Of a stretch of DNA of 45,969 bases, positions 1-3,711 are shown one piece after another; position 1 is the stretch's first letter; each line of letters begins with the position of its first letter. The notes under the pieces were generated by a model. That model searched no databases, was not told where the DNA came from, and saw only the letters and a program-made list of their open reading frames with translations. The stretch is taken from assembly GCA_902794035.1 (NCBI GenBank), contig CADBFN010000018.1, forward strand, positions 1 through 45,969. The letters are read 5' to 3'. Source of the DNA: an uncultured bacterium. GTDB lineage: Bacteria; Cyanobacteriota; Vampirovibrionia; Gastranaerophilales; Gastranaerophilaceae. The translations under genes and the position numbers were made by a program.

Positions 1-1
1 T

Positions 2-582
2 CTAAAAAATTGTATCGGATTTATAGATGTCAATGGTGTCAGCTTACCTAATAAAGAAGTAACCTGTGCAGACGGTACATCTTCATTAGATGTTTATACC
101 CCATGTACATTAAAGACAACGGGTTCAAAAATCGGAGATGTATATCCGATAGTCTTTCATAACGGCACAGTTGAACCTGCCACCAATGCAGGACTTGCAC
201 AAATTGGTGCACAAAGAGAACTAACAGATGCAGAGAAACTAGCCAAACGCCGTCAATTTGACAAATGGGTTGCAGAACCCGTTTTAACTCCAATGACGAA
301 AGCACAATGCGAAGCAAAGAAAGAATCCTTAGGTATCAAAGCATGTAATTATGATAATGATTACTTCGCCGCAGCAGCAGAAAAGTGTGGTGGAGTAATT
401 TCAGTAAATTACCTGAGAGCTTTTCGGGTTTAGGCTCCTCCTGGAACTACTTGTGGTCAGGCCGTGAGGCCAGCGCCTACGGCGCGTACGCCCGGGGCTT
501 CCGCAGTTCGCACTCGGGCAGGGGCAGCAACTACCGCGACTTTTCGAGCTTCAGGGCCGTTTGTGTGGGTGATTTAGAGTGA
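2..582 (+). pseudogene. DGR target protein, 3' part, frame-disrupted (pilin-like body plus variable C-terminus)
   Basis: The gene runs in from the left edge. From position 2 the frame gives about 143 residues, including a VNG/LPNK stretch, a DVYPIVFHNGTVEPATNAG segment and a Cys-containing EAKKESLGIKACNYDNDYF segment, and stops at 431-433. The variable repeat at 433-573 reads in another frame (open 385-582) and ends FRAVCVGDLE then TGA. One protein therefore needs a frame change near 385-410. Relative to DGR lectin-fold targets as I know them, the segment between the CGG motif and the WSGRE motif also looks too short, which suggests an internal deletion. The first part resembles pilin/pseudopilin-like proteins (inference). 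The C-terminus matches the DGR C-type-lectin/FGE style ending WSGRE...AVCVGD. The VR region is far more GC-rich than its surroundings. A sequencing error or a programmed frameshift are alternatives to decay. Confidence 0.7.
433..573 (+). repeat. DGR variable repeat (VR)
   Basis: This is 141 nt (47 codons) colinear and gap-free with the template repeat at 1214-1354. I count 23 differences. In 22 of them TR has A and VR has G, C or T. The exception is position 445, where VR has A and TR has T, near the 5' edge. Most changes fall in TR AAC codons, which become GCC, GGC, TAC, CGC, CAC, GAC or AGC. The last 30 nt (544-573) are identical to TR and are the likely IMH-type priming/homing end. GC is about 65% by hand count against about 52% for TR, as expected when adenines are replaced. 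Adenine-specific substitution is the hallmark of DGR mutagenic retrohoming. Confidence 0.93.
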
Positions 583-1213
583 TTTAATAATTTAATTATT
601 TAATCATTCCGCGCGAATTTCGGAAATGTTACAAATTCTTAACAAAACAATAATTCGCATAAATCACAAAATATTTAATTATTTAATATAAAAATTCGTA
701 CTTTGAAAACCTCCTAAAACCTTTTAATACCAAGCTTTTGATAGTATTATCATACTTCAAAATCTTTGATATTGCAAGTTTTGGGTACATATAACTTCAT
801 GAAACGTAACAATAAAAGCCTTCTCCCTTAGTTAGGGGAGAATAGAAGAGGGGTATTAATTTTGTTTTATTAATCTAAATCTTTCAAGCTTTGTAGGGTG
901 CGTATATACGCACCTAATCGTGGTTTGTACTCACCTGACGGCAAAAGTAAAAGACTTATTATTGGCTTTTAACATGAACCCGAGGGATCTTTATCCAACT
1001 AAATCCTCTCGGGATTTTTTTAATATGTTCATGAAGTAATGTATTTTATATATTGATAAAAACAGGTCTGAGCTTGTCTGTGCTATGGTGCAACAGGGAG
1101 TGCCTTTTTTATCACGTCAATGACAGTTGTCTGTGAAGATAACTAAAGGTTTGGCTCAAGCCAAACGTCGTTATTTCTGAACATTCGGAATGTACGATTT
1201 CAGATCATTGTAT
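583..1213. other. 631-bp gene-poor spacer between VR and TR
   Basis: I see no convincing gene here. It contains two copies of a 15-nt AT direct repeat ATTTAATTATTTAAT (590-604 and 673-687), a weak 5-bp hairpin TTCCG/CGGAA at 607-625, a REP-like hairpin TTCTCCC/GGGAGAA at 821-842, an 18-bp perfect palindrome GGTGCGTATATACGCACC at 897-914, a terminator at 979-1021, and two hairpins just before TR: GTTTGGC/GCCAAAC with a TCAA loop at 1149-1166 and ACATT/AATGT at 1181-1193. The last two may belong to the TR RNA leader (inference). No reverse-transcriptase remnant was recognised. Confidence 0.6.
979..1021 (+). terminator. Rho-independent terminator
   Basis: The stem CCCGAGGGAT pairs with ATCCTCTCGGG (one bulged T) around a 14-nt loop and is followed by seven T (1015-1021). 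It lies inside the VR-TR spacer, so it could end a transcript coming from the DGR target gene or a small RNA from the spacer. It would also insulate TR from upstream transcription. Confidence 0.65.
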
Positions 1214-1354
1214 AGCTCCTCCTGGTACTACTTGTGGTCAGGCCGTGAGAACAGCGCCAACAACGCGTACAACCGGAACTTCAACAGTTCGAACTCGAAC
1301 AGGAACAACAACAACCGCAACAATTCGAGCTTCAGGGCCGTTTGTGTGGGTGAT
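1214..1354 (+). other. DGR template repeat (TR)
   Basis: This is the adenine-rich partner of VR. It has 14 AAC/AAT codons in the VR reading frame and about 40 adenines, 22 of which are changed in VR. Exact homology to VR begins at 1215 and ends at 1354, and the flanks of both repeats are unrelated. It would be transcribed as the TR RNA that is copied into mutagenised cDNA and replaces VR. A 70-codon open frame covers it (1190-1402) but is explained by the VR-like coding phase, so it is not called as a gene. It lies 81 bp upstream of avd, whereas in the Bordetella phage BPP-1 cassette avd precedes TR. Confidence 0.92.
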
Positions 1355-1435
1355 AAATTCAGTTTTTGTCAATATTTTATGCGGTCGAATTTTTTTCGTT
1401 AGTTTTGATTGCATTTTATAAAAGAGGATATATGT

Positions 1436-1783
1436 ATGGCTCAATATCAACATTTATTAATTTATAAAGCTTCTTACGATGTATTTTTCAAATTTGTTAA
1501 TTTAATCAATCATTTTCCCAGAGAATATAAATATTCGCTCGGAGAACGGATACAAAATGTTGCCATTGATATTATTGTATTAATTTACAAAGCTAATTCG
1601 AGTAATGATAAATCTGTTTTAATATCTAAAATTATTGAAAATATACAGTTATTATATCTATTTTTAAGATTGTCACACGATTTGAAAATAATTTCTGTTG
1701 ATAAGTATGCAGAAATAATAGAAATGTTGGATGGAATTTCAAAACAAGCTTGCGGATGGCAAAAATCAAATAATTTTTCGTAA
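1436..1783 (+). CDS. avd: DGR accessory variability determinant (Avd), four-helix-bundle protein
   Basis: The 115-residue product carries the features of the Avd/four-helix-bundle family: a YDVFFKFVNLINHFPREYKYSLG helix pair, then IVLIYKANSS, then a long central helix and DLKIISVDKYAEIIEMLDGI, ending CGWQKS. Known Avd proteins are basic pentameric helical barrels that bind the DGR reverse transcriptase and TR RNA and are needed for mutagenic cDNA synthesis. I start at ATG 1436 because AGAGGA (1423-1428) sits 7 nt upstream; an upstream TTG in frame at 1409 has no such site. Position right after TR supports the call. No reverse-transcriptase gene follows; the next gene is an ABC binding protein. 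The RT must therefore lie beyond the left edge, elsewhere in the genome, or be lost. Confidence 0.88.
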   Translation: MAQYQHLLIYKASYDVFFKFVNLINHFPREYKYSLGERIQNVAIDIIVLIYKANSSNDKSVLISKIIENIQLLYLFLRLSHDLKIISVDKYAEIIEMLDGISKQACGWQKSNNFS

Positions 1784-3017: not shown

Positions 3018-3320
3018 TTAATTAATTTTTTGGTAAAATAAAATTCCATCAGTATCTATACTGTTTTTCATTCCCTGATGAGTGAGTATTTTATAATCTG
3101 TTACATCAAATTTATATGGAGTTGGTAAATTTTCCAAATCATCCAGTATTGATGAAATTTTATTATGTTCATCTGTCCATATTGCAAAATCAATATCTGA
3201 ACCGTTGTGAAATTTCCCTTTTGCTCTTGAACCATATAAAACAACTTTTTCAATTTCGGGTTTTGATTTAAAATAATTTAAAAGTTCATTTTTTGTTCTT
3301 TCGGGAATACCGTTATCCAT
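3018..3320 (-). CDS. mntA: MntA-type minimal nucleotidyltransferase antitoxin
   Basis: A 100-residue protein with the minimal nucleotidyltransferase signature GSx10DxD: G30-S31 and D42/D44 in LYGSRAKGKFHNGSDIDF. In MntA/HepT systems this enzyme AMPylates a tyrosine of the HEPN toxin and neutralises it. I start at ATG 3320, giving an 8-nt overlap with the upstream hepT, in keeping with translational coupling; upstream in-frame starts would extend it deeper into hepT without support. Gene order toxin then antitoxin is usual for this family. The third acidic residue probably lies in FDVTDYKI but I cannot fix it without an alignment. Plain HI0073/HI0074-type pairs have been annotated as generic nucleotidyltransferases; the Tyr-containing toxin motif here favours the type VII TA reading. 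Confidence 0.82.
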   Translation of the reverse strand: MDNGIPERTKNELLNYFKSKPEIEKVVLYGSRAKGKFHNGSDIDFAIWTDEHNKISSILDDLENLPTPYKFDVTDYKILTHQGMKNSIDTDGILFYQKIN

Positions 3321-3711
3321 TAAAAGTCTCCAGATTTTCTTTAAATCTTTTAAGTTCATAAAAATATGTTGCTGAAATATTTTCAAGAATCATATTAACT
3401 TTATCCTGATTATATTCGTGTGAACTTGCGTTTCTGTCTTTTGCCATATCAATCCATATTTGGGCACTTGGTAAAATGTTTGCTGCAAAAGCTTCTTTTA
3501 TAGTGTCTCTTGGGGTAAAGGTTTCTATGTCTTTTGTTTTTAAAAAATCCTTAATAACTTTCCATCCGAGTTCATAGACAATTTCAAATGCCTGCACAAT
3601 GGCAAGTTTATAAATATCATTTTGTTTATCATTAATATAACTATTGTGTGCAATTTCAAACAGGTTATAAGCTTTATTAAAATTTTCTATTCTTTCTGAT
3701 AATCTTGTCAT
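3313..3711 (-). CDS. hepT: HepT-type HEPN toxin
   Basis: The product has 132 residues, an all-helical HEPN (HI0074/KNTase C-terminal-like) protein. It carries the complete RX4HXY motif: R93, H98, Y100 in DRNASSHEY. R and H are the RNase active-site residues of HEPN proteins, and the Tyr is the residue AMPylated by the cognate MntA. It is first in a two-gene minus-strand operon, overlapping mntA by 8 nt. The pair stands alone between a plus-strand binding-protein gene and pheT, which fits a mobile stabilisation module. Nothing in the sequence shows whether the toxin is active, but the motif is intact and the length is typical. Confidence 0.85.
   Translation of the reverse strand: MTRLSERIENFNKAYNLFEIAHNSYINDKQNDIYKLAIVQAFEIVYELGWKVIKDFLKTKDIETFTPRDTIKEAFAANILPSAQIWIDMAKDRNASSHEYNQDKVNMILENISATYFYELKRFKENLETFNG

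Follow-up and report, generated by a model that had tools for sequence, protein, structure and literature searches.

The 45,969-nt window analyzed here opens inside a diversity-generating retroelement (DGR) that is very likely complete and probably working and that has been split over two contigs by the assembly. Its parts are a reverse transcriptase (RT), a prepilin-like target gene carrying a variable repeat (VR), a template repeat (TR), and avd. The window constitutes the whole of contig C18 from a 1.785-Mb, 47-contig assembly (G000) that is 94.5% complete, and position 1 is therefore a contig end.

The window carries a DGR cassette

An initial reading of the letters alone (the sequence-only reading) had reported two 141-nt repeats with 23 differences, 22 of them at TR adenines, and a recount of the ungapped pair (433–573 versus 1214–1354) gave the same figures. 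The TR contains 40 adenines in 141 positions, and the hypergeometric probability of placing 22 of 23 differences on them is 7e-14. Repeat finding in the window returned the pair as 434–573 and 1215–1354, at 84% identity. In a related genome, G021, the TR differs from that of the window at 9 of 140 sites, none of which is a window-TR adenine. The ORF that follows the TR had been called an Avd gene, and profile searches agreed: it matched Pfam bAvd at 6.8e-15, above the cut-off of that model, and the PHROG family "Avd protein of DGR" at 1.7e-25, while the match to NCBIfam DivGenRetAVD (3.3e-17, 62.7 bits) fell below the cut-off of 80. This is the sole avd found in the genome. The next gene had been read as an ABC binding protein and indeed matched solute-binding proteins. 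The cassette at the start of the window is a DGR, with the following features.

2–433, + strand: middle part of a prepilin-like DGR target, close to intact paralogs; its 5′ part is lost at the contig end
2–433, + strand: frame of this target, stopped by a TAG immediately before the VR; 94 nt are missing compared to the C21 paralog, shifting the frame
433–573, + strand: VR; its own frame is open from 361 to 582 (..SSFRAVCVGDLE)
1066–1213, + strand: structured RNA leader 5′ of the TR (z = −3.8 for 1066–1214; conserved, covarying hairpins in seven genomes)
1214–1354, + strand: TR, forming the repeat pair with the VR, with adenine-specific differences
1355–1435, + strand: TR-avd spacer with a hairpin (z = −1.5; a stronger hairpin and a T run in G021)
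1436–1783, + strand: avd, 115 aa (Pfam, NCBIfam, and PHROG matches)

Further along, at 3018–3711, two short ORFs on the minus strand (122 and 132 aa) resemble by eye a nucleotidyltransferase/HEPN-type toxin-antitoxin pair.

The reverse transcriptase probably lies just left of position 1

No RT had been seen in the window, and this observation held. At an E value of 0.001, a search of the whole assembly for RVT_1 gave a single match, on contig C30 (977–1645), which rules out an RT elsewhere in the window as well as loss of the RT from the genome. The gene is an intact 382-aa ORF (C30, 707–1855, minus strand). Its best match by sequence among solved structures was the RT of entries 8ub7–8ube (E = 1.5e-34), which we take to be the Bordetella (BPP-1) DGR RT, with a group II intron RT behind at 1.4e-9. 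A PHROG RT family was matched at 8.5e-99, as were the general models PADLOC RT (7e-37) and UG17 (1.3e-31). The NCBIfam group II RT match remained below its cut-off, and among the profile models matching this protein, none was named for a DGR RT. The sequence contains YVDD and IGNLTSQ, and the pattern IGxxxSQ marks DGR RTs. Judged by these matches and motifs, the C30 RT would be of the DGR type.

On the same strand and 3′ of the RT, C30 terminates within a prepilin-like ORF, the N terminus of a target, whose translation ends in ..LKNCIGF; the window starts in frame with LKNCIGF, and the first 22 bases of C30 are the reverse complement of window positions 1–22. When 19 N-side were compared with 14 C-side contig ends in or beside the target family, no exact overlap of at least 12 bases other than C30–C18 involved either of these two ends. 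On its own the overlap is weak evidence, because the 22-mer is repeated, with five exact places in the genome of which two are contig ends, and because other paralog contig-end pairs overlap by 40–97 bases. We place the RT left of the window because the related genome G263 carries on one contig the order RT-target-VR-TR-avd, exactly that predicted by a C30–C18 join; 21 of its 24 TR/VR mismatches are at A. Two further genomes, G243 and G318, which belong to one genus and are close to each other, have RT-target-VR-avd-TR on one contig, with 13/14 and 11/12 mismatches at A, respectively. Carried over to window coordinates, the RT would thus probably span about −1832 to −684, its near end being some 0.7 kb left of position 1. 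The layout lacking a nearby RT is most likely an artifact of the contig end.

Three possibilities had been offered for the RT. A position left of the window is now the best supported of these, and loss fails at the genome level, as the RT is on C30; action in trans is likely, though in another sense, since 12 of the 13 VRs described below lie at other loci. The layout favored by the sequence-only reading, in which the RT is separate from avd, is unsupported at this locus. An RT immediately left of position 1 had been named as the finding that would speak against it, and this is probably what the end overlap and the RT-first relatives reveal.

RT matches at an E value of 1e-40 or better were obtained in 45 of the 383 family genomes sampled (52 matches), and flanks were examined for 33 distinct RT genes (35 loci, two genes being covered twice). 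For 21 of the 33 RTs, avd was present inside the fetched flank; 19 of these avd genes precede the RT on its strand, which departs from the order proposed for G000. Among the RTs examined, the eight nearest to the C30 RT (itself included) had no avd within the fetched flank, and a targeted search found avd in 10 of 10 chosen genomes. A clade with separate RTs had been considered, and the finding of avd downstream of the RT accounted for most of it; G122 remains. In RUG12020 (L042; RT position as in G021 contig C36), the RT is 84% identical to the C30 RT; a prepilin-like target that carries a VR comes next on that strand, and the contig ends 169 bases past that gene.

It is unlikely that the DGR of G000 is truly split, with the RT and one target at the C30 locus, TR-avd and another target at the window, and the RT acting in trans everywhere. 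Such an arrangement would fit the separate contigs for RT and TR-avd in G000 and likewise in G021, where TR-avd and RT-target are apart, and it has a probable counterpart in G122 (L171–L173). There the RT, the single match at 1e-40 (weaker RTs left out), lies within a contig of 83 kb, and the 6 kb fetched around it contain neither avd nor TR, whereas target-VR-avd-TR is found on another contig of that genome, C19, with 20 of 20 mismatches at A; G122 contig C12 holds a second avd beside a TR/VR-like stretch that is 69% identical. Because the G122 RT stands apart from VR-avd-TR, truly split DGRs may exist in this group. For G000, a split is countered by the exact end overlap of C30 and C18 and by the three contiguous RT-first cassettes, one of them in precisely the inferred order.

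Other arrangements were seen among the sampled loci. G005 (L059, L060, L061) has three DGR-type RT genes in one genome, one in a target-avd-TR-RT cassette and two without avd in the fetched flank. In SIG32 (L043, 11120–11772), what appears by eye to be an Xre/RelE-like antisense pair lies directly downstream of the RT, where the target would be expected.

One template repeat and thirteen variable repeats

A genome-wide search for further VR or TR copies, which had been proposed as a check, yielded one TR and 13 VRs: the TR matched itself and 13 full-length stretches, 71–91% identical, on 12 contigs, two weak short matches being left out of the count. TR adenines account for 225 of the 292 substitutions over the 13 VRs: 225 of 507 A sites are changed, compared to 67 of the 1313 sites with other bases (Fisher p = 8e-84; this value ignores shared ancestry of the VRs). 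Two VRs are divergent, those on C19 and C6a, where 19/34 and 19/41 substitutions are at A; in the other 11 VRs the figure is 187 of 217. Indels of 3 nt occur in 4 of the 13, and the nine VRs that have none are all distinct. The two VRs of G021, compared to the TR of that genome, have 15/16 and 16/20 substitutions at A. Downstream flanks of the VRs (2.48 kb each) have dispersed repeats in common, with a longest match of 438 bases at 83%, and are not mutual copies. For 12 of the 13 VRs a contig end is no more than 1 kb away, as fits a window that begins inside such a gene. A viral origin was considered and is unsupported: a 36-base core of the TR had no exact match in IMG/VR, and the one IMG/VR relative of the RT is 36% identical.

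In 12 of 13 cases the VR forms the end of the open target frame, whether of a protein or of a fragment (..VCVGD). The exception is the window copy, where 94 nt present in the C21 paralog are absent near position 397 and the resulting frameshift puts a stop just before the VR; this deletion may be real or may be a misassembly. Were it real, the cassette could be dead or dying and the system a relic, as could also be read from the many non-A differences in 2 of the 13 VRs (C19, 15/34; C6a, 22/41). We consider this quite improbable, given that RT, avd, and TR are intact, that substitutions in the remaining 11 VRs are so strongly concentrated at adenines, that the adenines of the window TR are kept in G021, and that the deletion may be a misassembly, 12 of the 13 VRs being close to contig ends. 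Gene conversion or duplication among pilin paralogs in place of retrohoming would draw on the multicopy nature of the targets and their common sequence around the VR, but has next to no likelihood, as neither process predicts that 225 of 292 differences fall on the adenines of one noncoding copy.

The targets form a prepilin-like family

Only one target gene of G000, C6b, is present whole with its VR on one contig. The N-terminal methylation (prepilin) motif of C6b scored above the cut-off of NCBIfam TIGR02532 and just below that of Pfam N_methyl. C29, C19, C6a, and C39 retain part of the N-terminal domain before a contig end or gap, and the remaining VR loci comprise only middle or C-terminal parts of the same prepilin-like family. 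The N-terminal domain had 30 matches in the genome at an E value of 1e-5 or better; because many of these run off contigs, some target fragments must be two halves of the same gene, which leaves the number of genes uncertain. As regards a C-type lectin fold of the variable domain, no Pfam domain covered the VR region in three targets from G000 and RUG12020, and a PDB profile search of target C termini gave no match. A single-sequence AlphaFold model of the L042 target C terminus had a pLDDT of 50.5, too poor for a structure search. The DGR targets are probably surface proteins.

Poly-G tracts follow the leader of many family members

The genome of G000 contains 14 places with nine or more consecutive G, and all 14 follow the leader of the prepilin-like family. 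Tract lengths vary between copies from 9 to 15 G. Nine of the tracts run straight into the prepilin motif, while in the other five (C4, C12, C17, C33, and C38) an inserted repeat-like stretch comes next, as judged by eye (L098, L099, L101–L103); on C12 and C33 the contig ends before the prepilin motif. The reading frame depends on tract length: of the three length classes, a single one leaves the usual leader start in frame. When 12 tracts were translated, C37 read into the prepilin motif, C12 was open to the contig end, and 10 stopped early; the C17 tract reads through, and the C5 tract was left out of the translation. The leader copies of C7 and C28 have no tract and are both open, and still other members of the family lack a tract and start with a different leader.

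Two complete genes, C6b (8 G) and G021 C36 (10 G), were the only ones found with both a tract and a VR, and both stop early; the other tracts sit on gene fragments cut by contig ends. Within the genus, TTTNNNCCTC followed by eight G was present in 2 of 46 genomes, G000 (12 places) and G021 (2 places), which are also the two with the closest RTs. A reversed control of this pattern had no match in the 46 genomes. These observations, made on consensus assemblies in which homopolymer lengths can be wrong, suggest that the poly-G tract may act as a phase-variation switch of the family genes.

A conserved RNA structure precedes the TR

The 149 nt at 1066–1214 fold better than shuffled sequences (z = −3.8), and the equivalent stretch of G021 gave z = −4.0 with similar hairpins. 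Seven genomes were aligned over this leader, including the closely related G243 and G318, with rows not trimmed to identical ends. One hairpin, named by eye, had 92.9% of cells paired across the seven genomes. Changes on both sides were seen in 3 of its 6 pairs, a count reached by 23 of 500 shuffles; its covariation score was reached by 2 of 500 and its number of further pair types by 206 of 500. RNAalifold predicted 26 pairs, and in 15 of them both sides have changed. The leader 5′ of the TR is thus a structured and conserved RNA. The hairpin between TR and avd was matched by 13 of 200 shuffles in the window (z = −1.5), and in G021 it reached z = −3.9 and is followed by a T run. Rfam models gave two matches over 560–1460, both below their gathering scores.

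Comparison with known systems

Published systems are compared here as described in excerpts of the papers cited. In BPP-1, avd stands on the 5′ side of the TR and a structured spacer, followed by brt, on its 3′ side, and the structured element that recruits the RT lies 3′ of the TR (PMC12875486). The DGR described here resembles that of BPP-1 in having an RT, Avd, a TR, and a VR with adenine-specific differences, and the RTs are related by sequence; unlike BPP-1, the RT is probably the first element, and a conserved RNA structure was found 5′ of the TR. Over the leader and the TR-avd spacer folded here, the 5′ structured domain would be a difference from BPP-1.

Dispersed VRs also have precedents. 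In Treponema denticola, one TR and one RT serve dispersed VR genes, with up to seven targets (PMC4891356); the VRs of G000 are likewise dispersed, but number 13 and lie in prepilin-like genes of a family with poly-G leaders. For cyanobacterial DGRs, 76 remote targets across genomes have been reported, in an account that describes CLec proteins, most of them predicted to be cytosolic (PMC7517822). Targets are thus remote in both groups, CLec proteins in that account and prepilin-like here, and the text of PMC7517822 mentions neither pilin nor Melainabacteria. Trans action of a DGR has been described for Thiohalocapsa (PMC10907252). Multiple VRs were reported in 271 of 948 DGRs, some with a dozen or even hundreds per TR, and putative pilin structures were linked to DUF1566 targets (PMC6642488); most cellular DGR targets are reported to be membrane anchored, with C-lectin-type variable regions (PMC8144416). 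Because multitarget DGRs are known, 13 VRs are many but not unprecedented.

The leaders, in turn, resemble poly-G contingency loci in their 5′ coding G tract and their multicopy, probably surface-exposed family, and differ from them in that the family consists of DGR targets. Our literature search returned no paper joining diversity-generating retroelements with Gastranaerophilales, Melainabacteria, or prepilin, and none joining a diversity-generating retroelement with both phase-variable and homopolymeric.

Implications

In the mechanism that we propose for this probably working DGR, the TR would be transcribed with its structured 5′ leader, and RT and Avd would copy the TR RNA, misreading adenines. 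The cDNA would then replace the VR in the window target and, in trans, at the 12 dispersed loci of the same gene family, with the replacement varying the C-terminal part of probable surface proteins. The oddity reported for the RT dissolves with this arrangement, and what stands in its place is a 1.8-Mb genome in which a single TR, a single RT, and a single avd face 13 VRs.

The prepilin-like target family also carries a possible second, independent diversity mechanism. We tentatively suggest, as a possibility falling somewhat short of an even chance, a two-layer engine in which poly-G tracts switch prepilin-like genes, a largely trans-acting DGR rewrites up to 13 of their C termini, and the TR RNA is structured at its 5′ end. 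If the poly-G switch works, a single gene family would be subject both to choice of expression and to rewriting of sequence, and for genes that have a tract as well as a VR, long reads could follow the two at once. If the two-layer engine is real, each cell would show few variants out of a constantly mutating repertoire, in a nonphotosynthetic relative of cyanobacteria.
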